From Cenococcum geophilum 1.58 (lineage: Eukaryota > Ascomycota > Dothideomycetes > Gloniales > Gloniaceae): 64,000 nucleotides of DNA. The stretch spans positions 1,178,001-1,242,000 of the forward strand of contig KV748211.1 of the NCBI GenBank assembly GCA_001692895.1, in the 5' to 3' direction. A program made the translations under genes and the position numbers. The notes under the pieces are model-generated. The model was not told the DNA's origin. It made no database searches and saw only the letters and a program-made list of their open reading frames with translations. Below are positions 27,343-52,200 of the stretch, piece by piece. Numbering within the stretch: the stretch's first letter is position 1; each line of letters opens with the position of its first letter.

Positions 27343-29099
27343 ATAGGGCTTAGCATCTAAAAATCCAACTAATTAGATAACTTTAACCGCTGGTTAAAGT
27401 TCCTGGATATCTTAACAATATTCTAGTTACGTAATTGCACTTTACCGCAATCTGACGGTAATCTAATGGCAATTTACCCTTATATAGCAATGTATAACGG
27501 TTTAACTCTATAAGGGCTCCTATAGAGGATTAGGTATAAAGTTTTTACTTAGGCCCAGTTTCTATAGGTTCGCGTAGTAAAAGTCGCTAATTAGATCCTT
27601 TACATTTTTAAAGTCTTCCTATAGTTGCCATTCTGGCTAATTTATATCAAATCCTGTGTATATAGCTCTATAGTAGAGCCGTTGTCCTCTACCTTTACCA
27701 AAGTATTTAGAGTTAATAATTTATTTAATAGTCTACTCCTCGTAGTTCTCGTCTTCGTTCTTATCTTAGATTAGTACTAATAGGGGTTTAGGCTATATCT
27801 ACCCTAGTAAGGGGTTAGGCTAATAAAGGTATAGTAGCTATAGGTAAAATACGGGCTATATCCCGTGGGTAGCTAGGGTAGGTAGGAGTTCTAGCTTATA
27901 TACGGCTCCCCTATTAATAACTCGTTTAATTAAATAGGGGCTAAGGTTTTTATAATTAAGTAACTTTATAGGCCTCTATATAGAGATATTGCGTATATCT
28001 AGCTATACCTAGTCGCCAACACGTATCTCCGGTGGTGGCGTTCTATAATAATTAGTAAAGTAGGCCTACTTTACTTAAGCCTAGGCCATTTCTCCCTTGC
28101 AGTAGTTAAGTAGATTTTTTATATAGTCTGCATGCTAGTTAGTAAGTAGTATCTTAAGGCGTTTTCTATATAGTAGTTTCTTATTAATAGGTTCTAGTGG
28201 CTTTATACTGGATTAGGGGTAATAACCCTTATTCGCGAAGAACGGGGTAAGTCCTATAGTGGTTAAGACGTAGTTATTTGCTGTAAATTTACCTAGTAGG
28301 AGGTAATCTACTTAGTTATCTTAACTATAGGCGACTACCTATCGTAGGTATACTTTTATACTGGCGTTAGCGTTTTCTAATTACCTAGCACGTCAGGAAA
28401 ACGGGAAGTGGCGTAGGAAATTTGGTTTTGCTAAATGTGTTTTTGGGGCCCAGGGCTAGCTTTCCGCCATATTAGCCGACCCCCTGGAGCCTAGGGCCAG
28501 CTTTCTGCCATATTAGCTAACCCCCTAGAGCTATACGCTAGCTTATGGCTATAAAATAAATATTGTCACTATTATTGCATTTTTTGCCATTAGGGTATTA
28601 AAATCCTAAAGGCCTCCTAGCAGGCTCTACGTCAGGAAAACGGGGAGTGGCGTAGGAAATTTAGTTCTGCTAAAAGCGTTTTTAGGGCCTAGGGCTAGCT
28701 TTCCGCCATATTCGCCAAAGCCTAGAGCTATTATAATTCTCAAATGGCCATGGCTAAAAGAGCGCAATACTATATATATTGCAGCAATAAGCCAGCTTAT
28801 AGCTATAAAATAGATATTATTACCATTATTGCATTTATCGCAGATATTATATATATTGCTTTCATTAAAATCTATATTTATAACTATGCTTTTCGTTTAC
28901 GGCTCTAACTCTTTATATATTTATTAGCAGCTTATTTACCTTTTAAAAGAAAATCTTTATTATATAATATATTAAACTAATTAAAATCAACCTAAGGATT
29001 AATAAAAAAGCTTTAGGGCTCTAACCTAAGCTTTAATAGCACTATATACGCGCTACGGAGCACTAATAAAAGGTTATAAATACGACGTCCACTAATACT

Positions 29100-31990
29100 T
29101 CGTTAGCACTTTGCAAGAGATCGCTGCTATAGCTCTACCTCCACTATACCGTAAAAATCGTTTACGCGGCCTATATCTTTAAGACGAAGCAGGTTAACTA
29201 AAACACCCATATATTAAAGCCACCTACCCTATAAGTTTAACCTTTCTTTATCTATAACTGTAATAATTAGTTAAGCCTTTCCAGGAAGTATACTGCTAAG
29301 AGGGTATATCTGCCCAGAAGTGGCAGTTTACGTATACTCTTACACCTATATATAATCTCGTCTCTATTTACCTTAGCTCTGCCAATTATATATATATTAG
29401 ATAAACTCTTTAGCTATAGAGTCTAGGCTCTTTCCATCCCGCTTCTAACATTGGACTAAGTTATAGATGCACATAAAGTATAAGCCTACTTTAAAAGAAT
29501 CCTCTTCTCTATAATCCATTTAAATATTAGTAGTAGAGGTTCTATCCTACTTATTACAATTCTCTTATAAAAACACAGCTAGTGCTTTAATAAAACCAGA
29601 AAGCCCTGTTTCGTTTTTAACTTAATATACCCAGCGCCATATTTTAATTAGGATACTAGCCTCTTCCGCTGCATATCTATTATCCTAGTTAATAAACTAG
29701 CCCATATCGGTTAGGTCTACTAGTTGTGTTAAGGTTATAGCGTAAACTACCTTAGCAATGTCTACTGGCGATAAAGGTTTCGTCACTTTAAGCATACGGA
29801 GTTCTTTTATTGCTATTATTTGGAGGTACTAGGTATTATAATAGAGCAATTACTCCTAGTAGTCAGAGCGCTTATTTATACAGTTAAAAAATGCCTTTAC
29901 TAGAAGTTTATACATAACCTTACTATACTTAACGTCTATACTAGTAAGGCTACCTATCTTATAGATATAGTAGGGGTAATAGGTAAGAGCGTAAAGCTTT
30001 AGAATATTAAAGTGCCGTTCCTGCGTTACGCGGTATAATAGGCGGAATCTAAAGAAGGCGGTTTTTATCTGGTCTATAATATAGAGTACATATTCCATAT
30101 ACCTAATAGTATTATTATTATATAAAGCGTATTATATAAGCATTATAAAGTCCAAAACTGCTCAAGCATATAGCATTACTTCTATATATTCCTTTAGTAT
30201 AAGGGGTACTAGTACTGCTATAAGCTATCACATTATATCCTTCCGGAGATAGCCTATCCATTAACCAACTAATATAAACTCTTTAAACCGTTTCATACTA
30301 ACAAATTCCGGTATTTAACTAAATCGTTCATTTAGCACGGCATTAACATAGTCTTCAGTTAAACCCTACCACTTTAGTTACCCTTTTAATCGCCGTAGTT
30401 TTGCATTTTTAAGCAAGAGATTCTTAGTCCAGTCAATTAGGTCGGTTACTATCCCTTTTATAAGCTGGTGTAGTATATTAGGAGTTATACAGGTATAGAT
30501 ATTCACTAAGTAATGCTTCCAGGCAAAGTTTTATTATAGGTAAACCTAAGCATCGTCCAACTGTTTAATATTCCTTCTAGATTGGAGCTCTATTTATTGT
30601 CTTATGCTTATATAATTACGGAACTTCCATTTAGCCTAGAGATTTCCTCGCTAGTCGGGCGGTATCTGGCATATAGTGTATTATCAAAGATTCTTTACAC
30701 CTATAATTACAACTTACTCCTTATAGTCCGCTATTATTAATAAAATAATAGGGTAACATACTCTTATCTTTCTGTCTATATAGGCAATATAAATACCAGT
30801 CTTTAAAATCATTTCTAGCGCTTAAGATGCCATCAGTTAATAATATACGGGTAGGTGGCTTAAAGCACTTATGGGCTAATATAAGTTCTATTACGGTATA
30901 GTATACTTCTAATTTAACCTACCCTTTTATAATAGGAATAAACCTAAGTAATACTATACCCGGGCGTTTCTGTACATAGCAAGTTCGGCTATCTAAGTTA
31001 AACACCAAAGCATACACTGGATATATTATTATTTTACCTTATTCAGACAGTAAGGTCTTATTAGTCGCAATAACTAATAGTACTATAGTAGCGCCCAGTG
31101 GAAGCTAGTCCTACTAGTGCTACTAACAGTTACTAGTATAAACTTCTATATACATCCGTAAATTATCATCATTAAATAGTCAAACTGGGGCGTATATAAG
31201 ATTTAGGGCGAATGGCTAGTAACCTAGTAAGAACCGTAGTACCTACACAATACTTCTGTATTGGATGTAGTATTCAGTCTATTTTATTAAACCCTTTCCT
31301 TTATTAACTTGCAACGTATATTCTTCTTATTTTTTAGGCATAATACCCTGGTTTAATTAATTATATCTCCAAAATAAGTCGTTTAAGTTCTTTACAGATA
31401 TCTAATCTTATAGTAGCGGAGCAAGCTAGGGGTCTCGTAGAAATTAATCAATAGCCCCCTATAACACTTTTTCTTGGACAAAGAATAGGGCAAGTATATA
31501 CTCCGCTTTACTTTAAAATAGGTAGAATTCGGTTCTAGCGTCATTAGGTAGATTAGGGCATTACTAATATAGCTACGTCTTGTCTTTGGTCGCATAGTAT
31601 TACACTAGTTCACCAGCACCTCTCCCAGTAACCTCTATATAGCCTTCTATCCTAACAAATATCGCAGTTAATAACAATCCTCTCTCTTATAGGGGGGGTT
31701 TCGGTTAGTTAATAGAGGTCTCTATAGTAGGTACCTCACAGCATATAGCCTGGTCGTTTAACAGTGGGGTAGATATCCCATTAGCAGTAATAATTACTAT
31801 ATCATTATTGCGCAATACAAAGCCCTTATCTTTAGAAGATATTTGTCAGTTACAGTTGGCGATTTTTAGTATATTATCGAATCCGTCATCAGTAGTTTAA
31901 TAGTTAAATTAGACCGGTTCATTCTTATCCTTACGTCTACGCCTTTTCTAGGGGTTGCTTTACCTTTAGATTTTATTCTTACATTTACAT
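29100..31990 (-). pseudogene. KDZ/Plavaka-like transposase remnant
   Basis: Minus-strand blocks in order include LFNDDNLRMYIEVYTSN (about 31170), LGATIVLLVIATNKTLLSE (about 31090), KIIIYPVYALVFNLDSR (about 31030) and KRPGIVLLRFIPIIKG (about 30960). A KCFKPPTRILLTDGILSARN block follows (about 30860), and farther on YSSTSTPYTKGIYRSNAI (about 30200). The run GATIV-IATDKT-YPVY-N-D-R-P-LLGFIP matches the catalytic region of the large DDE-type transposases called Plavaka/KDZ in fungi. Many in-frame stops are of the TGG or CAA/CAG to stop type expected of RIP. This gene would be the mobilising enzyme of the 21-kb element. The family call rests on memory of the motif pattern. Confidence 0.6.
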
Positions 31991-32399
31991 TTTATTTTAT
32001 AACGTTCCGCGCCACTAGTAGAATATAGGATTGCACGGTATCGGCTATATCTTCTATCTATAAAGTATACGGTAACTATTATAGATTTAGCTAGTGTTTA
32101 CGGCTTATTAATACTTAACTTACTCTTATACTAGGGTAGTAATATATTAAGTAGATATAATATTATTATTTCTAGCTTTATAGTTAGTAAGGAGTAAAGT
32201 AGACGCGTATAGAGGATTTTTTATAAACTACTTACGCGTGGAGTTTATAAGGTATTATATAATCCGCCAATAATAAGATACCTAAAAATGCAATATTTAT
32301 AATATTACAGATATCTAACTCTTATAAACCACTAACCTCGAAATTATCTCCTATTAACATCACTAGATTTTAATTTCTTATAATTCTAGTTCTAATATA

Positions 32400-33480
32400 C
32401 ACTGCCAAACCTATACGTTAGTTCGGTTTGCAATATTATAAATATTAGCATGCTATATTATATACCTAGGGCATACTATATATAATAGTCGCAATATCGC
32501 CTCCTCACATCCTTGTTTCCTACCTCTTAGCAGCACTACCTAGCTCTAGGGCATACACCAGACCCGCGCGTTAGTACGGTTTACAATATCGCAAATATTG
32601 GCGTGCTATATCGCATGCTATATATACAATAGTCGCAATATTACAACCTTAGTTCCCGCCTCTTAGCAGCACTACCTGGCTCTAGGGCATAGCACCAGAC
32701 CTATACGTTGGTACGATTTGCAATATTGCAAATATTAGCATACTATATCACACACCTAAGGCATACTATATATGCAATAGTCGTAATATTACAACCTTAG
32801 TTCCTACCTCTTAGCACCACTACCTGGCTCTAGGGCATAGCACTAGACCTATACATTAGTACGATTTACAATATTATAAATATTAGCGTGCTGTATCGCA
32901 TACCTAAGGCATACTATATATACAATAGTCGTAATATTACAACCTTAGTTCCCGCCTCTTAGCACCACCACCTAGCTCTAGGGTATAGCACCAGACCTAT
33001 ACATTAGTATGATTTACAATATTGCAAATATTGGCGTGCTATATCGCATACCTAAGGCATACTATATATACAATAGTCGCAATATTATAACCTTGGTTCC
33101 CGCCTCTTAGCGGCACCACCTAGCTCTAGGGCATAGCACCAGACCTATACGTTAGTATAATTTGCAATATTACAAATATTAGCGTACTATATCGCATACC
33201 TAAGGCATGCTATATATACAATAGTCGCAATATTATAACCTTAGTTCCCGCCTCTTAGCAGTACCACCTAAGTTCTAGTTCCCTTAATCCCTAACCTAGG
33301 GCATACTACTAGACCATTACATTAATATATTTTACAATATTGCAAATACTACCATACTATATCGCATACTTAAGGCATCTCATATCTACAATAATTATAG
33401 GCTTAACTCATTACCTTCTTATATCCCAGCTGCACTTAGCACTAATAGGTTTTGCTTCCCTTTAATCCCAGATCTAGGGC
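32400..33480. repeat. 148-bp tandem array, copy 1
   Basis: Units of about 148 bp, marked by CTCTAGGGCATAGCACCAGACC-like boxes at about 32545, 32681, 32829, 32977 and 33125 (spacing 136, then three times 148). Each unit contains GCAATATTGCAAATATTRGC and a CAATAGTCGCAATATTACAA-like stretch. The last, more diverged part (33290-33480) also occurs at the end of the second array. It lies just upstream of the first SNF2-type gene. Confidence 0.85.
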
Positions 33481-34029
33481 ATATACTTAGCTCCCTATAA
33501 CTACAAGATTCCGCAATATTACAGTTATTTAAATATCGCGCTATATACCTAAGAAATGGAATATATACATTATCTATAACATCTAAATCCTCTACCTAAG
33601 CTTTTAATTTATATTTTCTATATAATAATTATATTTTCCTAGGATCCTAATTATAAGACACCTCTACCCTTAGGCAATTATGCGTTTTCGTAATATTGCC
33701 AATATCTAGGGTTATGCACTTTCACTTTTATCTCTATACTTATTTATAAAATTAATTTACCTTACCGTCACAAATCTAGCCTCTAGTCATTTACTTCTAT
33801 AACATTTAACCCTCCTTAACCCTCTCTTTTCTATATTATATTTCTTACTATATTATAAGCAACTCGCAAAATGTTTTACTAGCGGCAGTTTTCGTATTAT
33901 ATCCTTTCTTATATTTAAGTTTAGCAAGTTATATATCTTAGTCTATTAGTGCTATACTAGTCCGCCCATTTACTAATCACGCTAATTAATCATTCTAGAA
34001 TCTGTATTTTAACCCACTGTTAGGGTTCT

Positions 34030-37000
34030 GCCCTTCTATATAAATACCATCTAGGACGCCAAGACTGCTATCTAATCATCCTACAAGATAAACCCTAAGA
34101 GATTAGAACTTAAGGCGGCAATACTATAGGGAAGCTAGGACTAAGTTAGGAATATATCTAGCACTTATAATTGTGTTCGCGCTAGAGAATACATTAAGTA
34201 TGGGATATACAGCAATATAGAAGCGTTGGCGTTTAATAATTGCCGCCTTTAAGCAGTATCCCATCCAGTTATTTATAGAGAGGAGCTGCTCGGCACTATT
34301 ATAGAGCGAAAATTAAAATGGTAGAAGGAGTAAGACTAGAATCAGCAAGCTAAAAAAGGGTAACACCATTTATAGGTAATAGGAATAATTCTAACCTAGT
34401 GCCTTCTCGCTAGTCTAGAACACCAGAGCTTATAAAAAAGCATTACTATAATAAATTAAAAGCACCTCCGGCTAACGCCCCAAGTGGGATCTCGCCGCAC
34501 TTTATTAAGAGTAAAGTAACTTTATAAGCTTGCTCTATAACAATATATTCTAGTACTACTTATATTATTACTTAGTCTTATTTCCAATCTATTATAAAGC
34601 AGAAGCCTCATAAGTCCGCCTACTAGACACTAGTTAGCCCATGCTAGAACAAGCTTATATTAATAGCTATCGCACCCAGTAGTAAGATTTGGCCTATAGG
34701 CTTTAACACTAAGCGCCCTTATAATAGCTATGGTCCTGCCTAATATAGGAAAAAGCTAGCTATTATAATTAGCGACGCTATAAACTCTAGTTTATAAATG
34801 CTAAAGCCGGAAGTCTAACTTCTATATAAGTGCTTTATATTGCAGGTATTTCAGCTCTTATAGCATATCACTAATATTTAAATCTAGTTATATCCTTATT
34901 AAATACATAGGTTACAGCTAGCCCATTTCCAACCCTAGATAGCACAACTTCTATGCCAATAACGCCTTAAACCGGTATTTAGAAACTAGTCGCCACCAAA
35001 ATATCTACTAGTTCTGGTAACAATACCACCCTAACTAACCCGCTATTAATCCCCACCTATATTCCTAAAAATAGCGACCAGTTCACGGCTGGTATTGCTA
35101 AAATTACTACCATTAGTAAAAATAATACTGTAATCTAAAAAGGACAATATAGATACTTCTAGAAGTCAGCCATCTCTACTACTAGCGTTAGTAAATACCC
35201 CCGAGCCGTACGGGATTAAGAAGATAGTACAATTAGAAAATAATATAACAACTCTAAACAACGCCATAGACGTAGAGTTTACTAACAGCAGTAATAACGA
35301 AGATAATAGCGCTCCCCTCCCTAGTAAAGGTGATGGCGCTAAAAACGACTTCGTGGACTATAAGAATAAAAGGGATATTAGTAATCCCAATGCCACGTTT
35401 TTTTAATGCATGTACGTCCATATATCTCCAATATATCCAATATAAACGCTCTCTAAATTTAAAACCAATATTCATTTAGTTTAAATCCTGGCTTTAACTA
35501 AGTAATAAGGAAAGAATATAAGTATATTAACGAAAATCTATGACCAGAGGTATGCGGATGCCTCCGTTTTGATCCTAATACTAACTTTAACGCAGGTAGC
35601 CTTTTATTGCCACTATAGCCGGTTATAAAATCCTTTAGGGAAAAAAAATGTTAACTAATTACCGCCTATTGTCAGATTATATTTAAAAAAGACGACGTTA
35701 ATAGCGGTATGCGCGCTAACTAGATAGGCTTAGGCAAGATAGTAACCGCAATTCTTGCCCATCTACTAAACTGATTAATTAATGTTAATAAATAGGCCAT
35801 TTAGGATTCCCGAGTAAAAAGTATAGATTATATTTTACTTATTCCGGAGGGAAAGCCAAAAGCGCGGAATACTCCTTATGGGATAGATTATAAAGGCAGT
35901 ATACCTATATTAATAAGAATCTATATTCTAAATTTAAAGAGTTAATAGACTAACGCTTCTTATAGCGCTACCTAGACGTTTATTAGCCTGGGTAAACAAT
36001 ATAAAAGTAGGGCTTAGCTATTAACGTATTAAGGATATACGCAAATCCGTAGATATAAATAGTAGAAGGGATATTTAGTTTCGGCTAATCTATAATAACT
36101 ATAACAAAATAAACTGCAAGTTCCTCTCTAATATTCTTAAGTACTATAAAAGCAATATTATTCTTAATACAGATACCCCCAACGTTAAATATTATACCCT
36201 ACTTATTAGCTTATCTAGATTTTGTTATTACTATAATATTAAAGTATTAAAAAAAATCTCTTAAGTCTACTAGGTATAAAATAGCACAGACTATAAAGTC
36301 CGAAATGCCCTGTTATATAGCACCATATATATCTTATCCAATTCTATTATATTAAGAAGCGCTTAACTTAAAGCTAGTAGTTAATTAGTAGGTCCGCGAA
36401 AATTAGCTAATTAGATAATACCCTTGTCTGGTAATATTTTAGTGCTCCAAGAGGCGCTATTTCTAGTAATCTTGGCGCCTTTCTAGAAACTCTATTAATA
36501 AGGCAGGGTAATAAATGGGAGAGTAAGCCTGGTTATAATCTACTACTCGGCCCCAATGTCTTTATACTATAGGGAAGTGTTAATAAGATAGTTAGGACAA
36601 AAGTAAAGCTAACTAAAGGTGCTAGGAAGAAAATATAAGAGGTTATAAACGGCTTCTATAATATTATCCCCTAGTTCGTTATTAGATGTTTAATAAAGAC
36701 AAAGTGGTTCATTAAGGAACTACTTATTTGGATTAAAGCGACGCGAACCAACCGGAACTCCCACACCACCTATAATCCCTTTGCTGCAAAGCAGATAAAT
36801 AAGGCCACTTTTAACCTTAAAATAAAGTTTAAGCCACCATATAGTAAGAAATTAGTTGGCTAATTATATAGAGTGTTAAAACTATAATACGGAACTATAG
36901 AATAATATTAGCTTAGTGTGGCATTATAGAAAGCCTTTATATCTATACCAGTTTTTCAAAATAGCATAATTAAAAGGACAAAGGTTAAGGTTTTAATATG

Positions 37001-37640
37001 CCTATTATACCCATATGCTTATTAAAACAATAATAAATAAAATTATACCCTTGGCCGTTACAAGAACCTTAACAATTTAATCCTTTATAGTAAGTCAGAC
37101 TCTTCTATACAGACAAGCCCAAATATAGATACCTTAAAGACTATTTTTACTAAACTTGGGCCTACTCGTAAATGTAATCTATAGAAATTAATTATATTTA
37201 CCGCATTCCCTATAATCGCATTTATAATACGCCTAGTATATTATATTTATAATAAGCGCAATATTCTTACATCCCACTCTTTATTTAATCTCTTAGATAT
37301 AAATATAGCGAGAATACCTGCCATTTTATAGCTAGCCAGATCCAGATTAAGAGGGATAAAGTTATTATTAACGACTTCAACACCAAGGCCTACTAAGGCC
37401 TCTTACTTCTACCGGCCAGGATCCAGATAGTAACTCTTAGCAGTAACTTTACTACTTAAATCTCTTACTAAGTTTCGTTCTGCCGGTGTAAAATCAGTAG
37501 CTTAGAGCTTATTTTTAGTATTATAGATTTTAGAGCCGTAGATCAATCAATTAGCGTAGAGCCGTTATATTGTAGTAAAGCTATATCTAGGCAATCTATA
37601 TCGTAATCCTTGGTATAATATTACATATAGAAATGCTTAA
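34030..37640 (+). pseudogene. SNF2-family ATPase remnant, copy 1
   Basis: Plus-strand remnant collinear with the better preserved copy at 41.2-44.9 kb. The Walker A region is seen at 35727-35747 (GLGKIVT, Thr to Ile by a C-to-T change), following a block that matches the copy-2 lead-in. A helicase C-terminal block lies at about 37.2-37.6 kb, with LIIFTAFPIIAFIIRLV followed by an INDFNTKAYQGLL-like stretch. Between 34.0 and 35.5 kb an N-terminal region of low complexity shares short blocks with copy 2. SNF2 ATPases remodel chromatin or translocate on DNA; why a transposon would carry one is unknown. Many stops. Confidence 0.68.
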
Positions 37641-38006
37641 TTGTAAGAATTATATTTTAATTAAATTTATAAGATTATAACTAAAAGTCCTCGCGGTATA
37701 GTGATACGGTAAGTAATATAATTACTGCTATTTAGAGCTAGCCCAATAAGATTAAAAATAGTTATCTCTAATATATATATATACATAACAAGAAGCGTAA
37801 CTTATAAAATTGGGCCTTAAGATTTAATCAAAAATATAATATTTATAATTTAAAGCCTTTGCTAATACATAATTTCACAATAAATAACCTTCTTTTTATT
37901 GTTCTTAACGCGCTACGGATAAGAATTAAACCTACTACGCCTAAGAGTTGCACTCGCGACATCTAATTACTCGATCTGGCTAGGTAGCTCAGTAACAATA
38001 CGATAA

Positions 38007-38100
38007 GACTCGGCAACGATATAATAAGGCTTATAAGACTCGGCGACAATATAATAAGGCTTATAAGACTTAGCGGTAATATAATAAGACTTGGCGTCAA
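38007..38100. repeat. 30-bp short tandem repeat
   Basis: About three units of GACTCGGCRACRATATAATA plus AGGCTTATAA, with GACT starts at 38007, 38037 and 38067 and a shortened one at 38088. Lies between the first SNF2-type remnant and the coiled-coil remnant. Confidence 0.75.
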
Positions 38101-38439
38101 GCACTAGGAGAATTTAGGGGTTACTCTATCACTATAGGAAGGCTATAATACTTAGCGTAGTATTAAACTTTAAAGATCCCATTTATGGAGTTTTTATTAA
38201 TAACCTATTAATAAAACGTTAACAGCGCTTAATTTTAGTACTTTTATTGGCGGGTATAGGCCTTTAAATTTATGGGTTTATATGGGATAATATAGTCTTT
38301 AACGCCATTTAAAAGGCCTCCAATAATATTAGCAATATTATAAATATTAACGTGCGTTATATGCCATACATGCAATATTTAAAATCTCGCCTATTGCCGG
38401 AGTTATAGTTTCTATAACCCCGTATACACCCTAAACCCA

Positions 38440-39960
38440 TATAATAGTGAGTTTATTTCATTTCTAATAGCTCCTCGCACTACTTACGTAACCTTAATTA
38501 AATTTCCACGTTATGCGCCGCCTACCTAAGATCCTCTAAATAACTAGGATAGCAAACGCATAAAGTAAAAGCCCTATCCCATCTCAATTTTAGGCATTTA
38601 CCGTCGTAATTACCTTAAAAGCTCCTTACTAACCCCCCATTAGATTTTCGTCGGACCGCCGTTCTACAGCTTACTCTTTAGCTTCTTAATTACTCGGCCA
38701 ACCTCTCTATAACAATTATTGGCCATTAAACCGGCGTAGTTACTGATATTACTTGCGACTTCGAAGAGCTATTTACGGATAAGGTTTTTCTAGATACTAT
38801 TAAGTCTTTAGTTTATAGCGTCTAGTTCGGCTATCTTAGACTCTTTTAAGTCCTTAAACTTAGTGTTAAGCTAGTTTTACTTATACTTCAGCGTAACTAG
38901 TTCTAGCAGCGATTTCTTAATCCGTTTAATTTCTGCCTTTAACTTATCGCGCTCCTTTATAAGACGGATTTCTAGGGCTAATTAGGCTGTCTTTATACAA
39001 TCTAGCTCCGCCTTTAATTGGTCGTACTTAAGCGTCTAAGAATCCTCTATTAACTTTTATGTGCTCTTTATAGCCTCCAATTCTTGCACAAATTTAACTA
39101 ACTTTTTAGACGTCGCAATAGACTTATTATGCCAATAATTAACTAATCTTAAATAAGATGAGACTGTTATATCTAGTGCCTTATATTTCGCTAAAAGCTT
39201 TTAAAACATTACCTTTCTCTAATTTATATTATTATGCGCTTCGGTTAGTGCGAATATAGTTTTATAACCTTAGAGTTATAGTCCTACTTTATTACTTAGG
39301 CGTCCTAAATTAGATTAACAATAGATATATTCTAAGCCTTCTTAGCTTTTTAAAGTTCCTTAATATTAGTCTTTAGACTCTCTATATTCTGGCGATTAGC
39401 AGCTAACGCAGTCTATAAAGTATCCTACTTCTCCTTTATACAACTAATTATCTAACTTATAACATTAAAGAGGTCCCCCTTTTATAGTTTTCTAGTTTCC
39501 ATAACAGCCATCTCTATAGCGCTATTTTTATTTAACTTAGTTCTCTCTAGACTATATATAGCGGCATTTCTAGCGGCCGACAGAATAGAATGGGTTGGCG
39601 AAGGCTTCTTAAGAGGTAGCTAAACTGTCTTTATAGCTTTAGCTACCTTACCATTCTTCTCTTACTTAATCAGAAACCCTCTAATCCCCTTTTAGCAACT
39701 ATCCGCCGCCTTTTTCTTTCGCGGCTTTAGAGCTAGCTTTATAGTTCCATTTCCGTTCTTTAGTAACACCTTTTTAACATAGGGACGCTTAGTACGCTTA
39801 GCTAGGGTAGTTGTATACCCCAGCTTTTTATTTATCTATAATAACCAATTAGCGTAAGATATCTATAACTCCTTACCAGCATACGTACTATTGCGACGTT
39901 TACCTTAAAATAGGTTAAGGGCTAGTATATAGTTAAGGTAAGGGGAAATTTATTCTAATA
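38440..39960 (-). pseudogene. Coiled-coil protein remnant of unknown function
   Basis: Read on the minus strand from about 39.9 kb: a basic N-terminal part (TLAKRTKRPYVKKVLLKNGN, then LALKPRKKKAADS, then KKPSPTHSILSAARNAA) followed by long Lys/Glu/Leu-rich stretches of heptad character (for example ANRQNIESLKTNIKEL near 39.38 kb and KDLKESKIAELDA near 38.85 kb). This suggests a DNA-binding or scaffold protein with a coiled coil. I do not recognise a family. It is interrupted by several stops. It sits between the two SNF2-type genes and reads in the opposite direction, like the transposase. Confidence 0.5.
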
Positions 39961-40009
39961 TAGAGAGTAGGTAATAGATAGGTGGATATATAGTTTATAA
40001 TATCACGAA

Positions 40010-40790
40010 TATCTTTACACTAATTTGTATACTTAGGGCATGCTATATATATAATAGTCGCAATATCACCTCTTCGCAACCTTAGTTCCCGCTCTTAGTA
40101 GCACTACCCAGCTCTAGGGCATAGCACTAGACCCATACGTTAGTATAATTTACAATATTATAAATATTAGCGTACTATATCGCATACCTAAGGCATACTA
40201 TATATGCAATAGTCGTAATATTACAACCTTAGTTCCCGCTCTTAATAGCACCACCTAGCTCTAGGGCATAGCACTAGACCCATACATTAGTACGATTTGC
40301 AATATTATAAATATTAGCGTACTGTATTATATACCTAAGGCATACTATATATACAATAGTCGTAATATTATAACCTTAGTTCCTACCTCTTAGCAGCACC
40401 ACCTAGCTCTAGGGCATAGCACTAGACCTATACGTTAGTACGGTTTATAATATTATAGATATTAGCGTACTATATCGCATACCTAAGGCATGCTATATAT
40501 ATAATAGTCACAATATTATAACCTTAGTTCCCGCCTCTTAGCAGCACTACCTAAGTTCTAGTTCCCTTAATCCCTAACCTAAGGCACACTATTAGACTAT
40601 TATATTAATATATTTTGCAATATTGCAAATACTAACATACTACGTCATATACTTAAGGCATCTTATATCTGCAATAATTACAGGCTTAACTTATTACCTT
40701 CTCGCATTCTAGCTGCACTTAGCACTAACGGGTTTTACTTCCCTAGAATCCCTAATTTAGGGCACGCCACCAGATCCACGCAAATATATA
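40010..40790. repeat. 148-bp tandem array, copy 2
   Basis: Same unit as 32400-33480, with CTCTAGGGCATAGCACTAGACC-like boxes at about 40113, 40260 and 40408 (spacing 147-148). It ends in the same diverged segment (about 40580-40760). Precedes the second SNF2-type gene. Confidence 0.85.
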
Positions 40791-41189
40791 CAATATTTTA
40801 ATTATTTTCATTTAATCTATTATACCCAGCCTAATATTACCAATATTGCGCGCAATAACCATTTATTTTATTTTAGTTTAATTCTTAAATTAATTCACCT
40901 TCTTAGTTGTTGGTTATTTACCTATATAGTTAGCAAACCTTTTCTACCTTATGTCTTCTATTACAAGTCCACCGTCTTAACTTTTTTCATCCTAGTATAT
41001 CTTCTCACACTAGATATTATTAAGAGGAGATTTTTCACAATGGCTTCTTAGGAAAGTAAGCTTAGTAAGTTAAACTATATAGGCCATTAAAGCTAAGCTA
41101 GTTTATCCTTTTACTATTTATACTAACCCGCTATTATAGGTCCTAAAGTATAGCCCATCGCCAATAACAAACCCTTACACCCGCATTCT

Positions 41190-44100
41190 ATTTAGTACAC
41201 CTCGGCTGCTATCTAGCCATTAGACGTAATAGTCTATTAGGGTTTAGCAATTAATATATCTGGGCTATATACGGCTAAGGCCTACCTTTAAAAGATACTT
41301 AATAAACATAGATATTTTAAGGCTAAACAATACCGCTAAACCGAGATCCGTAGCAATATAAAAGCAATTACACTTACTAAGATTAACGCCTTTAAGCAGT
41401 GTCCCGATTAAACGTTTATAGAAAGAAGCTACTTAGCACTTATTATAAGGATAAAGTTAAACAAATTAAGAGTAAAATCGGAACCGCTAAGTTAAAAGAG
41501 GCCAACTCTATTAATAGACCCAGAAGATAACTTAGACTTAATTCCTCTACGCCTAAATAAAAACCGGAAAGGTTATAAGAAGCATTATTAAGCAAAACCA
41601 GAAATACCTAAAGCTAACCCTTATGCCGGGATCTTACTATACTATATTAAGAGTAACGTAACCCTATCGGCGTATACTATATATATATCTCACAGTTCTA
41701 ATACTGCTATTACTTAGTTTCGTCTCTAAGCTATTATAAAAGATAAGTTTCATAGGTCCACTAATTAGACGCTAGACAGTTTATCTTAAGATAAGCTCGT
41801 ATTAAAAGCTACCGCATCCAGTGGCGTATTTTATCCCATTAACTTTAATACTAAGTATTTATAAGATAGCTTCGGCCCTATCGGGAATAAAGAAGAGTTA
41901 GCTACCGCAATTAGCGATACTATAAACTCTAGCTTATAGATGCTAAAGCTAGAAGTCTAACCTTTACGTAAGTGCTTTATATTACAAGTATTGCAGCTCT
42001 TTTAGTATATTGCTAATATTTAAATCTAGCTACATCCCAATTAAATAGATAGACCACACTAGACCCATTTCCGAACCTAGACAGTATAGCTTCTACGCCA
42101 ATAATGCCTTAGACTAATATCCGGAAACCAGTTATCACTAGAATATCTACTAGTTCTAGTAATAACGCCACCCTAACTAACCCGCCTTTAATCTATACCA
42201 ATATTCCTAATAATAGCAACTAGCCTACGCCTAGTATTGCTAAGACCACTACTATTGGCGGAAAGGATACTATAATAGGCGGAACCTCTAAGCAGGGCGA
42301 TAAGGATGCTTCCAATAGTTAACTACCTCCGCTATTAGCGTCAGCGGATACTACAGAACTTTATAAAATTAAAAAGATTATATAGGTTAAAAGAAACGGA
42401 ACGAATATAATAAACGTCATAGAAGTGTCGTCTAATAACAGTAGTAATAATAAAGATAATAACGATCCCCTCCCTAATGCAGGTAATAAGGCCAAAAACA
42501 ACTTTAAGGACCATGCGGATAACGAGAAAGGGAATAATCCTAATATTACGTTCTTTAGACGCATATACGTATATATATCTCTAATATATCTAATATAGAT
42601 ACTCTCTTAATTTAAAACTAATTTTTTTTAGCTTAAATTCTAGTTTTAATTAGGCGATAAAGAAGGAGTGTAAATATATTAACGAAACTCTATAGTTAGA
42701 GGTATGTAAATGCCTCCGTCTTAATCCTAACGCCAACCTTAACGCAGATAGCCTTTTATTGCCGCTATAGCCGGTTACAAAATCCTTTAGAGTAAAAAAA
42801 TATTAACTAATTACCGCCTATTACTAGACCGTAAATAAAAAATATAACGTTAATAGTGGTATATACGCGGACCAGATAGGCTTAGGTAAGACAGTTACTA
42901 TAATTCTTACCCATCTATTAAACAGATTAATTATTATTAATTAATAGGCTATTTAGGATTCCTGAGCAAAAAAAGATAGATTATATCTTACTTATTCTGC
43001 TAGGGAAGCTAAGGATGCGCAATGCCCCTTATAGGGTAGCCTGCTAATTTAGTGCATATATATTAACAAGAATCTATACTCCATATTTAAAAGACTTAAT
43101 AGCCTAATACTTATAATAGCACCACCTAAAGCTCTATTGGCATAGAAAAAGAACATTAAGCTAGTATTTAGCGAAAATTACTTAACTATAATGCGCGAGA
43201 ACATAGGCAAGAATAAGGGCACCGCGGATATTCAGTTTCGAATTATATATAGTAACTACGCAAAAACGGCCTGGGAGTACCGGAAAGGTAACTCTAAATT
43301 CCTTCTTAGCTATATAGAGCCTAACCTAGATAACCCGGACGATATATTATATAATCCTCCCACTAATTTATCCCGCTTTATTATCGCCATGACTATTAAA
43401 TGCTAGAAATAACGATTCCTGTACTTACTAGGCGAGATTCTACCTAGGGCACACTATTGATTAAACGCAGTAGTATGGCTCTATATGTTTTTTAATAAGT
43501 TTTATACCACTAAGAATAGCTAAACTTAGTTATGGACTATAACTAGACAGCTCGCGATTTAGGCTTTACCGAATAATATCTATCTTTGGGGATATTCGGG
43601 CACCCTAGCAGGCACTAGCCCTAGTAATCTCGCTATATTTCTGTAAACCTTAGCAATAGGGCGGGATAAAGAATAGGTAGAAAAGCCTAATTATAACCTG
43701 CTACTCGGTTCTAATATCTGTACGCTATAGGCAAAAATGAATAAAATAGTTTAAATAAAAGCTAAGCTATTAAAGGAGGCTAAGAAAGAAATGGGGGCCA
43801 TTATTAACGGTTTTCGCGATATTGTTTCGCAATTTATAATTGGGCGCTCTATAAATATATAATGGTTTAATAACGAACTATTAATTAAAATTAACGCACG
43901 AAGAGTGGACTGGAATATTCATGTTAAGTATATAGGCGAGGTCTTAAAGCGATTAAATAAGGCTATAGACGAACTAAAGAAAGAGATTAATGCAGTATAT
44001 AAGAGGAAACTAGCCAAGTGGAAGTAGAAAGGTTTAAACGCTAATTAAAAACCTACAAAACCATACTGGTCTAGCTCGGCATTTGCCTATAAGCTTCGAA

Positions 44101-44880
44101 TCTTTACGGACTTCCTAGAGCTACAACTCTAGAAAAATAAGGGCAAAGATTTTAATATGCCTTTTACTAGCTTATATTTAGAAGGAGATAAAAATAAAGG
44201 CTATATACTTAACTATTATAAGAACCCCAAGCAGTCTATATTTAAGCAAGAACTGCGTTTTATTGTGGCTTTAAGTCTAAAAATAGATACCTTAAAGACA
44301 GTTCTTATTTAGCTAAGGACTAACTATAAAGGTTATCCTAAGAAGTTGGTCGTCTTTACAGCATTCCCAGTAGCCGCCTTTATTATTTATCTAGTATGTC
44401 TTATCTATTTTTAAAGTAATATTTTTATATTCTAACGCTGGATTAGTATCTTTATAATAGGTACAGATTAGGTAGTTATAAGTTAGTTAGCGGTAAGCTT
44501 AAAATAGAAGAGAGAGAGAGCATCATTAAAAAATTCGAAAATAACCCCACTCTAAGATTCCTTATATTAACTACCGGTCTTATATCTAAAGTATATACTC
44601 TAATTAGAACAAGCAAGGTGTTTATATTTAAGCTACAGCCGCTACCTACGGTTAAAGCTTAGGCATTTGGACGTACCTATAGGATTAGACAGCTAGAAGA
44701 TAAAGTTACGAATATTAGGGCTGTATCTAATGAGGTTAATATAGAGGTGTATATTTAGCAGCGGGCTAAGAAACATAAGATCTTTATACTAGGCGCTTTT
44801 TCTAGAGCGCTAAAGCATTATATTAAAAAGAAGCACCTTTTTAGTGCCTTATTACTTAAGATTGCTTAATATATATTAGA
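41190..44880 (+). pseudogene. SNF2-family ATPase remnant, copy 2 (better preserved)
   Basis: Seen directly: ADQIGLGKTVT at 42867-42899 (motif I of SNF2 ATPases); an open stretch 43191-43403 (MRENIGKNKGTADIQFRIIY onward) between the two lobes; VVFTAFPVAAFIIYLV near 44.35 kb (motif IV region); a run with FENNPTLRFLILTTGLISK near 44.54-44.59 kb; and AFGRTYRIRQ from 44663 (motif VI, the H/Y-RIGQ box). Order and spacing fit a full two-lobe SNF2 ATPase of perhaps 1000 residues, with a Ser/Thr/Asn-rich N-terminal part. Motifs I and VI are in different frames and several stops occur, so it is not functional now. It belongs to a duplicated block together with the 148-bp array. Confidence 0.78.
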
Positions 44881-45239
44881 ACCGGGTTCTATTAGCAAGG
44901 CTATATAGTAGGGAATAGACGGTTTCTTCTATATACTTAATTGGCTTAATTAGTACCACTAGCTAAGTAGGTACTACCTCTACAGTATACTAATTACAAT
45001 ATATTTTATAACACCTAGCTCTAAGTATATATGATAAAGATGTTACGGTTATTGTATATATATAAATATTATAAGAGAGGTAATAAATATAATATATTAC
45101 GAATATTGCAAATAATTAGTAGATATACCTATTTAGGTTTAGCCGCTATATAACTCCTTTTCCCTTACGCTTAATTATAACAACCACCATAAACAACCCA
45201 ACGACAATCGACAGCACTATACTGGGCATTTAAGCGCAA

Positions 45240-46560
45240 ATGGAACAGCAATCCAAACCTATGTCGCTTTCTTTAGTATATAAGGCCCACGCAATAAAAA
45301 ACTGGTTAATAAAGTTTATCTGCCTAGGCCTAAAAATTAATAAAATATCATATAGCGACATTTATTCTACTATGGAATAGGGACTTACAGACATTTAAAT
45401 GCTTGGTTTACGACTAAATAAGGTCGGGAACCGGTTAAGACTTAATTAGGTGTTTCGCAATATAATTAAATTATTTCCTACCGTTTTTATAGGCATACCA
45501 GAACCTTGGCAGAGTAGGTATCTATCTATAATCGCCTAAAAATATAACAATAATCGGAAGCATTAAGTGTTAAATAGAGTAACAACCTTAGCATAAATCG
45601 AGTCCGTTGCGTATTATCTTAAATTAACTAATACACGCCGGCTAAGCAAAGAAGACCCAGAGTTAGTTACTTGGAATAGCCTTATATTTAGGACGGTGTA
45701 AACTAAAGTAGTCTATAAAGGAGATAGCCGGGAAATGCTATGTAGTTATAGATACTTTATGGCCGGTAGTATACCAGATAATAAGATTACGTCAACCGAT
45801 CTAAACTTTAGTCTATTTACTAGTGTACTCTTAGAAGATATTAGCTTTAATCCCATAAAACATAGAATTTTCTATTATAATAGCTAAGGAAGGGAGATAG
45901 AAGTTCTTACCAAACGGACCTAAAGGGCTGCTATAGATAAAATATATACTAAAGGACTTAATCGTTTTTATTTTACAGTAAGATATAAAGACTAAGGTAA
46001 GATAGATTATACAAGCAATTTTAGCAATATTAGAAATATTCTAACGCATTTAAATAGGCACACTACACCCGGCTACTATACCTATATATATTGAAACCAT
46101 TACACTATAAGCCGTTATAAGCAATTTATTATTAAAGCTACTAGGAATATAACTAGAGTTAGAGAGGAACCGTTTTAAGCCTAAGGGTTTAAGGGCATCT
46201 ATATAGGAAATTAGTAGTACACTTAGGCCAACGGTTTCTATATATAAAGTAGAATTAGTAAGCAATAAGTTAAAGCAGAAACGGGAGACCTCTGTCTAGC
46301 CTAAGAAAAAAAAACCAAGGGCCTAATGTTATATTTATATTATACCAACTATCCCACGTACTATGCTACATTTTATATACCTAATATTTCCAATATAGTG
46401 TTGATATATACACGGTTGCGCATATATGCTAGCTCAGCTAGATATACTAGATAGCTTAACCTAAGTAAGCAAGTCTTGAAATTAAAGAGCCCCTTTACAA
46501 TTTTTACTTTTCTCCTCTCTCTTATTAATAATCTACATTAGTACTCTTTTTATAGGCCAT
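45240..46560 (+). pseudogene. Unrecognised coding remnant in the 21-kb element
   Basis: Begins MEQQSKPMSLSLVYKAHAIK at about 45240 and keeps a coding look for roughly 1.2 kb, with blocks such as NRVTTLA, SKEDPELVTWNSLIFRTV (about 45650-45700), LCSYRYFMAGSIPDNKIT (about 45740-45790) and ILTHLNRHTTPGYYTYIY (about 46035-46090). Only RIP-type stops interrupt these. I recognise no family. Confidence 0.45.
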
Positions 46561-46609
46561 TAAATACATCTTTAACACCAATATATTAAACCAATACTAT
46601 TCTCTACTA

Positions 46610-48590
46610 TGGCCAAATTATCTAATATATAGGTTATTGCAGCGTCTAGCAGCCAGGTGCAACTTATATTTACTTTATAGCAGTGCCATATAGCTAATAA
46701 GATAGAGCCTATAGTATTAGTAAGCTTAAAAAGACTAGCGTATACCTAAGGACGAATCCGATAGTAATAAGATTCTATTACACCCCTATCGCCCTTAAGA
46801 CACTTGCCGTAGAACTAATATAACTTAGTATAAGCTTAAATCTGCCACCTATTCTAAGTCATTAGTTTAGAAAATAGTAAGGCCTACACACCTAGTATAT
46901 AGATTAACTATTTACCTATATATATAGGGTTATCGTGACATATTGCCTAATAAACGCCATTATTAACTAAGTACTGCCAAGGACGGAAGCACTAACGGTA
47001 TAAAACGATTAAGATATAAACTAGAACTACTCTAGCAGGGAGTACGACGGCAGGCCAAGTTTAACTCTATACCCGCATATATACCTATACTAGCCTATAC
47101 TAAGCTACTTATGCAGGCTATAGTTATAACAGGCTACTTTAATCCTTCCTATAGGCTCTCTCTATGGCCAGAAAGATAGAAGTCGGGCCTAAACGCACTA
47201 ATTATTAATGCTTGGCGAAAGGCTGGTTCGAACAATTAGGGGCGTATATTTAACGATATTCGGCCTCTACCTAAACCAAAAGAAGCTTATAGGGTAAGTC
47301 TCTAAAATCTACACCTCCTACTAGCAATATTTAAAGTAATACTAACACAGTATATATCGCAAAACTATAGTTATTTAACTGCGTTAGCAACTTTAGATCC
47401 TATATTCTAAGTAATATTCGTATAGTTATATATATACATTATCCGTTCCTTAATATACTAGATACCTAAGCTCTAGTCTTTTAACTACTTAAAGACAACG
47501 CATTTGCATACGCATATTCAAAGCTTATAAGCCCTACTATATACTCCTAGAGTTTACCTACTAATAACGGAAGGGGAAACAACAATTTGCAGCACCCGTA
47601 ATTATTAAGTGTATTGCTTAATGCTTTTTTAACCCAAACTCAAAAGGCCTAGCTTTATATCCTTAGACATCCGAGTATTTCTACCCACTTTTAGCTTACA
47701 CTATTGTACTAATTACTACTTATATTTAATATGCACTCACTAAATATAAAAAGGGAGGTCCGTGGCAAATAGTTAAGGTAGATATAATAGGAGAACTAAA
47801 CGGTATAAGTAATACTCTAATCTATATATATATTATAAGATACTAATTTATAAAGCAACGTATTATTAAATTTGGAAGATATAGGACGCGTAAGCTTCTA
47901 ACAGAAAGGCTAAACTACTATAGGTAATAGCTGGTCTTATTTAGAAGTAGATATACAAAACTAGCAACCTAGTTAATAATATGTATGCAGTATATAATCC
48001 ATATATAGATAACACCGATAATCTAGATAAGCTTAAGCTATATACAACCTAGTATAAGTTTAAGTTCTTAGTAATAGATAGCTTTCCTATCTCTAGCAGC
48101 GATAACTTAAGGCCTACCAGTTCTTCCTCTTTTGCTTATATAGATAAGGTAACGCTAGTAAGGAGTAAAGATTTAGGTTTAGATTAAAGGGTAAGTAAAA
48201 GCACATTTCTAAACATTATATTAATAACTTAACTAGGGCACTTTACGCTTGACCTTAATCTCTTTGCCGTCAATAACTATAAATAGCCCGCCTACCTAAA
48301 ACTATAAGGCTTCTTGCTTTAGGGTTGCTTAGTACTATAACTTAGATAATAAACTATATATACTTAATGTACTATATATAATAACACCAGATAGACTACG
48401 AAACTTACTAGACGTTAAAGAAGAAGATTTTCTTTAGTATACTCTTAGAAAGAGGGAAAAGCTACTAAATAATAGCAGATTTAACGTATTTTTGGAGTCT
48501 GTATAGTAAAAGGAAAATAACAATATTAAAATAAGGCTAGGATTGCCTAAAGATAACAACCTAGATGCATAGTTACTTCCTTAAGGTATA
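46610..48590 (+). pseudogene. Unrecognised coding remnant near the right end of the 21-kb element
   Basis: Opens MAKLSNI at 46611 and continues through blocks such as GTKRLRYKLELLQQGVRRQA (about 47000), FNSIPAYIPILAYTKLL, GLNALIINAWRKAGSNNQGR and VSLQNLHLLLAIFKVILTQY (to about 47350). A more distal block, LDVKEEDFLQYTLRKREKLL, lies near 48.41-48.47 kb. The two halves could be one gene or two. No family recognised. Interrupted by a few stops. Confidence 0.42.
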
Positions 48591-48654: not shown

Positions 48655-49275
48655 TAATTATTACAGTCATAAAAAATATTGCGATTATTATAGTTATAGT
48701 ATTATAGTCGTAGGAAATATTATAATTATTACAGTTATAAGAAATATTGCGACTATTATAGCTATGGGAAATATTGCGACTATTACAATTATAGGAAACA
48801 TTATAAATATTATAACTATTGCAGTCGTGTAAAATATTGCAACTATTACAGTTATGGAAAATATTGCGACCATTACAGTCGTGGGAAATATTGTAACTAT
48901 TACAGTCGTCAAAAATATTGCAACTATTACAGTCGTAGAAAATATTGCGACTATTGCAGCCATAGGAAATATTATAACTATTGCAGTCAAGGAAAATATT
49001 GCAACTATTGCAGTCGTGGGAAATATTGCAAATATTGCAGTCATGGGAAATATTACAACTATTGCAGTCGTGGAAAATATTATAACTATTGCAGTCATAG
49101 GAAATATTGCGACTATTGCAGTCGTGGGAAATATTGCGACTATTATAGTTGTGGGAAATATTACAAATATTACAGTCGTGGGAAATATTGCAACTATTGC
49201 AGTCGCGGGAAATATTATAAATATTGCAGTTATGGGAAATATTGCAACTATTACGGTTATAGGAAATATTATAAT
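48655..49275. repeat. 27-bp subterminal minisatellite
   Basis: About 23 imperfect copies of a 27-bp unit of the form GTGGGAAATATTGCAACTAT + TACAGTC. Because 27 is a multiple of three, long open stretches appear on both strands (48854-49312 + and 49098-48694 -) with a 9-residue period; these are not genes. The array lies about 150 bp inside the right TIR of the 21-kb element. A few eroded units also occur in the 1.4-kb derivative (9664-9755). Confidence 0.9.
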
Positions 49276-52200
49276 TTTAAGATATAAGGTTGCTAAAGTA
49301 GCCCCAGGCTAGCGTAAAAAAGTGTATATAAGCAGATTAGCGGATCCAGCGGAAATGACCCCGGGCTAGCCCCGGGCTAGCCCCTAGCTAGCCCCTACTA
49401 CTCTCCCGTTTTCCTAACGCAGTTTTATAATAGAAGAATATAGATATCTTAACGGAGATGCCAAGGCGTTAGCAGATTTGTCTCTATATATTAGAGTTAA
49501 ATTATATGCCTTAGTTAGACGTAATTGAGTTAGGTAACCTATATAGTTAGTAAACTTCGCGAAGGAAGGCGTTAGTAACGTCACTAATGGCTACGCCTTC
49601 GGTTAGGACGTAGTGGCGCTCTTTTATAAGTCGGCATATTATTATAAGGATATTCTTATAGGTACGGCCGTGTCGTTTATAGGGTAGTAGGTTAATAACG
49701 AAATCTATGGCGATATCTGCCTATTATTATATAGGTACTAGTAGAGGATATAGTAGTCCTTAGTACTTTATATTAAAGGCCTTAGCGCGCTTATAACTAT
49801 AGTAGGCGCCTATAAAGCGTTTAACTAAGTCTATTATTTTTAGCCAGAAGTAGTATCGGCTAAGAAGCTTATAGGTTCCTTTTCTACCTAGGTAGCCGCT
49901 TAATCGGAGGTCGTAGGCCATTTAGATTAGTTGCCGTTATAGATTTTCTAAGTTAGGGATAAATAGGCGGCCTTTATAATAGAGCCTATTCTCTTTTACT
50001 TTTAAGGCTACTATATTAATCTAGCCTAAGCTTTAGAGGTTAGTAGGCAGCGTATAGGCGCCGGCGGTCTTTATAGCAATAAGTTAATATAATAATAGGT
50101 CGGTAAAGGCGTTATATACTATAGTAATAAGCTTATTAATTTTGGGAGGTAACTTTAGTTCTGTGATATAAAGCTAGGGTATAGTTAGCTCTATTATAGG
50201 TAGTATGCCTAAGGCCAAATTTCGTGCTTTTAGGATCGTCTGTTATTAGAACTAATTATAGGGGTTATCTTTAAACTAAGGAAGGTCTTGCGAGCGGCGT
50301 ATTAGGCTATTAGGTTTAGTACCTTATACTCCTAGTCTATATACAATTTTAAAGTTAAAACTAGAGAGGAACTTATTCTAATATACTTAGCGTTAGTTTA
50401 GCTACTTTATGGTTATAAAGTACTTAAGGTTGCAATAGTCCGTAAGGACTTTAGTTAGCTAGTTAGGCTCTACTAAGGAGAGTTCTAGTTAGAATTCTTC
50501 AAACGCTTATATAATTATAAGGAGTTCTTTATTATAGATCTCGTAGTTATACTCTTATAGTATAAGCTTAGACGAGTAGAATGCGACTAGGTAAAGGAGA
50601 CCGTTATTACCTATTTAAGAAAGGATACCTGCGTTAACGTAGTCTAAGGACTTGGTTTTAAGGTAGAGTTATTATCCTAGTATAAAGTAAGCTAGAATAG
50701 ATGCTTTAGTAAAGGTATTTTTAAGGTCTTAAAACGCCTTCTCGCATTTAGGCGTCTAGGTAAAGCATAGGTGCGTTTTTCTTCCTTTTACAGAAAGGCC
50801 CTTCGTTTGTATTATTATTATAAGTAGTGCTACTATACCTAAGAAGTTGTATATAAATTTCTAATAGAAGTTAGCGAAACTTATACGCCCTTAATATAGT
50901 TAAGGGCTTACTATTTGGTAATTATGCGTACCTTCTTAGGGTCTATACGGACACCCTTAGTAGTAATAATTAGTCTAAGGTATTTTACTTCTATAACTAA
51001 GAATTCGCATTTCTTTAAATTAATATAAAGTCCTATGTCCCTAAGGCGCTATAGGACCTTTTAAACGTGTTCTGTATACTTAGAGGGGTTATTGCTATAA
51101 ATAAGTATATTATCTAGGTACGCGGAGTAGAAGTCATTAAGGTAATCCTATAAGGCGTTATTAATATAGCTTTAGAAGGTGCCTGGGCCGTTATATATAC
51201 TAAAGGGCATAACGGTATATTTAAATTGGCTAAAGCGCGATGCAAATGCGGTTTTCCATTTATCACCTTCCCGTATTTAGAGGTGGTTAAAGGCGGCAAT
51301 AATATTAAGCTTAGTATAGATTTTGGCTTAACTAAGCCGCTTAAGGGTCTTACGTATAAGCGGTACTAGGTATTAGTTTTTAATTATAATAGCGTTAAGT
51401 CCTCTATAGTTAACGTAGAATTAAATACCTCCTTTTAGCTTCTTAGCGAGAAGAATAGGGGCGGCTACTAGTGATATACTGGGACGAATAAATCCTTTAT
51501 TAAGGTGCTTATTAATATACTTTTTTATAACTAGAAGCTCGTCTTTTAATATTAGGTAGAGTCTCTTATAAGGTAGCATTTTTCCTTATTTAATATTAAT
51601 GGTATAGTCATTAGGTCGATATAGGGGGAGTATATTTACGCTCTTTTGTAAGCATATATTGGTAAAGTTATAGTACCTCTTAGGGAGGAGCTTATAGAGT
51701 TCTTCGTTAGTAAGTCCTTTTTTAAGCTTTATAAACTTCTTAAAGTCTAAAGGTAAAAGTCCGTAGAGTTCTATAGGGGCGTTATCTTCTAGAAGGTTAA
51801 CTATGTCTATCCTATTACTATAGAGGACGTAGTCCTATTCTTTATTAAGCTTATATAGTTGTAATTAAGAAGCTGTAGTAACGGTCTAGCCTTTCTTACG
51901 TGCTATACGGTAAAAGGCTAGGGCACTTATATAGTGGCAGTTGGTTATAGGTGGGATAATAAGGGGTTCCTTAGGTTAATATCCTAGGGAGTAAATAGAG
52001 GCGGCTAGGCTATGTCCTAGGCAAGTCTCTCTATAGTATTTAGAGTTAAAGGTTACTTCTTTCTTCTTCTAGTTAATAGCAGGGTTATATTATTTAAGCT
52101 AGTTTATTCTAAGGATAATAGGGTAATTAATAAGTAGTATTATATAGGCCTAGAGTTCTTCCTAGTACCTATTTATATCTAGGTGGAGTTATACTATATA

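Follow-up and report, generated by a model that had tools for sequence, protein, structure and literature searches.

Plavaka transposons of the PlavakaB type have ends reading CATCA..TGATG and 2- or 3-bp target-site duplications, and published Plavaka elements can carry TET/JBP, a chromatin-related gene (Kojima 2025, PMC12730594, main text). Here we describe a 21,029-bp element, W, at positions 28391–49419 of a 64,000-nucleotide stretch of the Cenococcum geophilum 1.58 genome (the window in what follows). With a probability of roughly 80%, W is a decayed Plavaka-group DNA transposon, once autonomous and of the cut-and-paste kind, with a co-inherited pair of SNF2-like genes and a DUF6532 gene. 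The Plavaka group itself is known; new here is a ∼20-kb Plavaka transposon with a conserved SNF2 pair.

The family of W, termed family 1, shares with PlavakaB the PF18759 transposase and a 2-bp duplication and has ends one base away from the published ones (PMC12730594), but it is ∼20 kb long, carries two SNF2-like genes and DUF6532, and gave no TET/JBP match in a Pfam scan of W. TET/JBP-bearing fungal DNA transposons resemble it in that their carried gene is thought to act on host silencing (PMC12730594), whereas family 1 carries an SNF2-like gene in two copies, linked to a single kind of transposase. In AcademH and KolobokH, a helicase is encoded alongside the transposase of the DNA transposon (PMC10799480). 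VANDAL/VANC of Arabidopsis, a transposon protein countering silencing, offers a possible functional analogy. AcademH and KolobokH belong to other transposase superfamilies and are known with one helicase each, where family 1 has two SNF2 paralogues. VANC is not known to be an SNF2 ATPase, and the VANDAL elements are of the Mutator-like type. Starships are large cargo-bearing Pezizomycotina elements with tyrosine recombinase captains. The word SNF2 is absent from the main text of PMC12730594 (its supplementary sequences were outside that check), and in the open-licence PMC literature we found no paper naming both Plavaka and SNF2 (supplements lay outside the search) and no report of a transposon-encoded SNF2 chromatin remodeler with terminal inverted repeats (TIRs).

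Ends, copies and class of the element

The genome analyzed comprises 177 Mb in 162 contigs (each labeled C with a number); the window is C36:1178001-1242000, and W is its copy of family 1, subfamily A. W (28391..49419, no strand assigned) is bounded by 15-bp inverted repeats, CGTCAGGAAAACGGG on the left (28391..28405, + strand) and CGTTAGGAAAACGGG on the right (49405..49419, - strand, with one C-to-T change compared with the left-end complement), and by a 2-bp target-site duplication at 28389..28390 and 49420..49421. The 600-bp flanks of W align to one contiguous relative in the same window, at 16076–16675 (87.3%) and 16674–17273 (90.2%). These matches overlap by exactly two bases, which identifies the duplication as CA and places the empty target site within the sister repeat at 16674..16675. 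A 21-kb TIR transposon with an exact insertion site, as proposed in a first-pass annotation of the window, is thus borne out by ends, duplication and empty site alike. Contig C27 holds another empty relative. The end motif has five matches in the window with up to two mismatches, compared with a chance mean of 0.08, and its exact form occurs 200 times in the 177-Mb genome, compared with 0 for the reversed control.

Four separate pieces of the element, searched as DNA against the genome, returned 16 copies of the same layout, W and 15 others. The transposase region gave 16 full copies, and the SNF2-a and SNF2-b regions gave 16 each at identical places, the SNF2-b region being cut or split in C146 and C3 and having an extra contig-edge fragment on C56. 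The expectation that the transposase and both SNF2 genes travel together therefore holds at all 16 full places in this genome, while the truncated C7 and C19 lack some pieces. The DUF6532 region is found in 15 of the 16 copies, the exception being C146, which runs off its contig. Both ends could be read in 13 copies, 12 of which show a matching 2-bp duplication (chance probability ∼2e-13, assuming 62% A+T); among full copies it is TA in eight and CA, AA, TC or CT in the others. These 13 copies measure 19.2–21.0 kb, save two of 27.5 and 30.1 kb. It is extremely improbable that the transposase and SNF2 genes belong to a nest of separate, differently bounded insertions. Nested insertions are indeed present in some copies (C15, C4b and C3 are longer or split), but in W all the genes lie between a single pair of ends, flanked by a single duplication and matched by a single empty site, and the 12 duplications enclose the same gene set. 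For W, the empty site and the co-linear copies rule out a composite.

Two subfamilies can be told apart. In subfamily A the left end is doubled, with the second copy 239 bp inside, in all nine left ends located (eight copies and W; the left end of C9 was not located); in W this internal copy lies at 28630..28644 (+ strand). All four subfamily B left ends examined are single. Since the doubling is confined to subfamily A, two nested left ends would be usable there in principle. SNF2-a and SNF2-b are spaced by 7.50 kb in nine of ten subfamily A copies and by ∼6.4 kb in five of six subfamily B copies. Partial family 1 pieces occur on C7, C56, C81, C30 and C19. We rejected C27:138523-158355 as another 20-kb element: it has perfect ends 19.8 kb apart, but its contents are different and less A+T-rich, and it has no duplication. 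One of its sides resembles the short elements described below, and it probably consists of parts of separate elements.

A Pfam scan of W in six frames (28700–32400 and 33600–48500, stops read as X) revealed the Plavaka transposase (PF18759) in two halves on the - strand. The first half (profile positions 8–188) maps to 30862..31374 (E = 1e-14) and the second, in another frame (profile positions 195–324), to 30429..30818 (E = 1e-15). A genome profile search with PF18759 has nine of the 16 family 1 copies among the matches listed. The KDZ profile PF18758 had no match in the scan of W, nor in a genome profile search, which yielded no positive anywhere to serve as a control. Of the KDZ/Plavaka-like transposase annotated at first pass, the Plavaka part is thus the one that found a match. 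Beyond Plavaka, DUF6532 and Helicase_C, the scan gave nothing up to E = 0.5.

The family 1 ends, CGTCA..TGACG, differ from the published PlavakaB ends in one base, the second; the left end of copy C4a reads CATCA, possibly through a later change. Of the full copies 12 of 13, and of the short elements 10 of 11, show a duplication of the PlavakaB type. The TGT..ACA termini of PlavakaA are not those of family 1, nor are the CAC..GTG ends and 3-bp duplication of CACTA/EnSpm. No match to a DUF3435-type tyrosine recombinase, as in Starships, was present in the six frames scanned, where decay could hide one. There was also no Pfam match for a Helitron HUH Rep with Pif1 helicase, and W, unlike a Helitron, has TIRs and a duplication. 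The first-pass annotation judged the ends to fit no well-known class and the element to be its best candidate for an undescribed system. With ends and a duplication this close to published PlavakaB (PMC12730594), W is not an unclassified system and falls within the Plavaka group.

Short elements share these ends. One of 1.4 kb, a putative non-autonomous relative, lies in the window at 9542..10942 (no strand assigned), and 11 elements of 1.4–4.3 kb fetched from the genome include the ten with a 2-bp duplication counted above. What they share best with the big element is its termini, mostly the outermost 240 bp on the left and 220 bp on the right (at most three matches were kept per pair), and we infer that they are non-autonomous relatives moved in trans. 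Inside its ends W has 41-bp subterminal repeats (28444..28544) and, as first annotated, a 27-bp subterminal minisatellite (48700..49270), which is shared with copies C2a and C11.

The SNF2-like gene pair

Both SNF2-like genes are on the + strand of W. SNF2-b comprises an N-lobe region (42300..44096, with a motif I relic near 42.88 kb) and a Helicase_C lobe (PF00271; 44468..44686, with a motif VI-like stretch). The Helicase_C match in W, at 44471–44686, stays under the cut-off in hmmscan (E = 0.0039, 17.9 bits) and exceeds it in the genome profile search (24.4 bits). Across the 16 SNF2-b copies, PF00271 is above cut-off in at least four (C36, that is W, C43, C4 and C3). PF00176 matches at the SNF2-b place in five, all other than W, one of them above cut-off and four below; C4 scores 24.7 alone and 26.3 with neighbors, at a cut-off of 24.9. 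In 14 aligned SNF2-b copies (alignments A1 and A2, without the incomplete C146 and C3; C69 loses the frame in A2), motif I (AD-x-x-GLGKT) and motif VI survive as relics. A C-lobe profile searched against the PDB matched solely two Rad54/SNF2 helicase sequences, weakly (E = 0.0056 and 0.014); the N-lobe profile had no match there, and an NCBIfam search returned none.

SNF2-a is a decayed N-lobe with a motif I relic (35466..36878, 41% to the query protein) and is homologous to SNF2-b: in W the two align over 822 amino acids (31% identity, E = 2e-80), and 34.77–35.97 kb repeats 41.91–43.13 kb at 75.6% DNA identity. Family 1 SNF2-b thus combines the SNF2-rel and Helicase_C domains with motifs I and VI, as SNF2 ATPases do, and SNF2-a joins that family by homology to SNF2-b only. 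Two SNF2-type genes inside one TIR transposon, as first annotated, are therefore confirmed by SNF2-a, SNF2-b and the PF00271 and PF00176 matches of the copies. Histone- or chromatin-reading domains were absent from the six-frame Pfam scan, which is neutral given the decay.

The 148-bp arrays of the first-pass annotation were recovered ∼2 kb before each gene, at 32405..33278 for SNF2-a and at 40077..40561 for SNF2-b. Pieces of 250, 288 and 294 bp, each about two units long, are missing from these arrays in two subfamily B copies. A separate coiled-coil gene, also annotated, found no support. The sole open reading frame of at least 150 amino acids overlapping 26000–52000 sits in the minisatellite.

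Other helicase genes came up in the same genome. An identical 39.2-bit Helicase_C match occurs at C9:3080, C42:3080, C74:3080, C149:3080, C70:1329 and C43:782, and also at C88:527763 and C41:1518038. On six contigs it lies within ∼3.4 kb of the contig start, in open frames of 781–883 amino acids without stops, and these genes look like telomere-linked helicase genes. Another decayed SNF2-type/Helicase_C repeat family, not beside listed Plavaka matches, is present at C36:6364-50335, C75, C100, C71, C23:6117, C114, C76, C41:80443, C52 and C93.

A second Plavaka family and the DUF6532 companion

Searching the genome at the protein level, with SNF2-b as query, gave ten further places at 21–28% identity, nine of them beside Plavaka matches. 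With one of these (C42:263607-265370) as query, we defined a second family with at least 38 SNF2-b places, some of them fragments (74 of 250 candidates were scored); many have a second paralogue ∼6.5–7.5 kb away on the same strand. Family 2 repeats the layout of family 1, with the transposase on one strand and two SNF2 genes ∼4–5 and 11 kb off on the other, and ∼11 kb is the usual distance from transposase to SNF2-b in both. In the family 2 copy on C39, Helicase_C scores above cut-off directly after the N-lobe.

We counted how often Plavaka and SNF2 genes occur together, using 123 Plavaka rows (of 266 candidates) that form 110 loci, 43 split near profile positions 168–194 and 67 unbroken, and one SNF2-b row per place (16 in family 1 and 38 in family 2; SNF2-a rows and split pieces were left out). 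Among the matches listed, 36 of the 43 split loci have a divergent SNF2 homologue no more than 40 kb away, compared with 0 of the 67 unbroken loci, and Plavaka and SNF2 are paired in no other arrangement; random placement would give ∼0.26 of the 43. Seen from the SNF2 side, a divergent Plavaka match is listed for 27 of 38 family 2 and nine of 16 family 1 places, and the seven family 1 copies lacking a listed Plavaka row do hold the transposase by DNA search. Of 25 degenerate SNF2/Helicase_C places picked by eye from the genome matches, two were within 35 kb of a Plavaka locus of the unbroken, third group, and only one of these is divergent (C72, 26 kb). The best-scoring Plavaka transposase of the genome (C30:1712561-1713541; 230 bits, five stops) is in this group without detected SNF2; its nearest listed DUF6532 place, which has no stops, is ∼21 kb off.

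Because the distant second family keeps the transposase/SNF2/SNF2 layout, the pair looks like an old component and more than cargo, and the comparison suggests that the SNF2 genes belonged to the transposon's own machinery. That they were passengers, captured once and functionless for the element, is improbable. In favor of it, TET/JBP genes seem to have moved as passive freight from one fungal transposon family to another (PMC12730594), and all family 1 copies are dead. Yet both paralogues and their order are kept in two families whose transposases are only 29–35% identical, the SNF2 genes are still recognizable at about 22% identity between families (range 21–29%), which is hardly expected under neutral decay, and no family 1 copy of the 16 has lost either gene.

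A separate entry or duplication of SNF2 in each family, with the shared geometry arisen in parallel and not inherited, is harder to set aside, although we consider it unlikely. Paralogues are closer within a family (31–65% in family 1, 34–59% in family 2) than between families, and DUF6532 sits on different sides in the two. Family 1 transposases are 35–41% identical to those of the unbroken group, and one family 2 copy is 29–47% identical to five of that group. The transposases of families 1 and 2 are, if anything, further from each other than from a group in which SNF2 was not detected, which weakens a simple common-ancestor story. Against parallel origins stand the near-identical distances (∼4–5 and 11 kb) and strands in both families, and gene conversion between paralogues would produce the same pattern of similarity. 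That both families retain the pair points to a single old duplication combined with gene conversion, or else to a duplication in each family in parallel; by either route, having two SNF2 genes would have been useful.

DUF6532 is the other recurrent neighbor. W retains a DUF6532 (PF20149) gene remnant at 47553..47756 (+ strand; E = 4.7e-5, 23.8 bits, cut-off 24). Genome-wide, 64 of 91 DUF6532 places are within 35 kb of a listed Plavaka match. The unbroken Plavaka group has DUF6532 at 47 of 67 loci, 43 times upstream on the opposite strand and most often at 15.0–15.5 kb. Family 2 has it at 15 of 27, always downstream on the same strand and ten times at ∼3.55 kb; in family 1 it lies beyond SNF2-b and reaches threshold at two of nine listed loci. 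A Ganoderma genome paper (PMC8955403) mentions DUF6532 and Plavaka in one sentence, as domains of some species, and proposes no link there. Placement now ties this unexplained fungal domain to Plavaka elements, of which it may be a general companion.

Decay and possible roles of the SNF2 pair

W is extinct, and all copies of the family are dead and decayed. Compared with two subfamily B copies, W differs by 2858 transitions and 151 transversions, an excess of transitions such as repeat-induced point mutation (RIP) would leave, and which suggests that its decay was RIP-like. Stop frequencies gave no clear coding signal, and the two partial SNF2-b N-lobe matches hold stops like the full-length ones.

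Several observations weigh against reading W as an autonomous Plavaka transposon with its own SNF2 pair. The dinucleotide ratios of W (1.48 and 0.64) are RIP-like, yet by the same measure the window as a whole is at least as RIP-like (1.56 and 0.64). All 16 copies are broken, with 31–43 stops per ∼599 codons in the 14 full-length SNF2-b N-lobe matches, and transversions carry no codon-position signal (151 sites, no window under P = 0.05). Copy C2a has no matching duplication, and C9 and C3 each have an end that was not located. On C7 there is a right end with the DUF6532 region but nothing else of the set, on C19 a left end with broken transposase pieces, and the short elements with the same ends carry none of the genes. 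In W and C2b, SNF2-a itself matches no Pfam family, and its motif I is eroded; PF00176 has no match in W, nor in SNF2-b of C11. In family 2, ends were not found (homology between C42 and C91 spans nearly all the sequence compared), 11 of the 38 SNF2-b places have no Plavaka match among those listed, and the SNF2 of the C42 copy matches PF00176 weakly (E = 0.063). Family 2 SNF2 has no match in the PDB, and a search with it did not return family 1 at E ≤ 0.001.

In the mechanism we propose for family 1, the transposase would have recognized the element by binding its short ends and subterminal repeats and would have moved it by cut and paste, mobilizing in trans the 1.4–4.3-kb elements with the same ends as well. 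The two SNF2 ATPases would have worked for the element itself, most likely by clearing nucleosomes from, or remodeling them on, its own ends or promoters, or alternatively by helping to resolve DNA during excision and integration. A chromatin role of the pair is a tentative proposal. SNF2 enzymes are translocases of the SF2 group, and a possible alternative of some weight is that the SNF2-like proteins acted as accessory helicases or translocases on DNA in excision or integration and not on chromatin. Helicase-bearing DNA transposons, AcademH and KolobokH, are known from fungi (PMC10799480), and the conserved pairing with the transposase fits a core role in transposition equally with a chromatin role; no sequence feature of the element separates action on DNA from action on chromatin. 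More speculative still is a giant Plavaka clade with an obligate paralogous SNF2 pair, perhaps a heterodimer, that was kept over very long times as the transposon's own chromatin engine. Such an engine would make silenced copies accessible to expression or transposition and would parallel the TET/JBP genes found in other fungal transposons.

Should the SNF2 pair prove to be a core component here, transposons would have taken up a nucleosome-moving class of enzymes beyond the enzymes that edit DNA methylation. The pair would also help to explain the ∼20-kb length of these Plavaka elements, and the opening of chromatin by a transposon itself would become directly testable.

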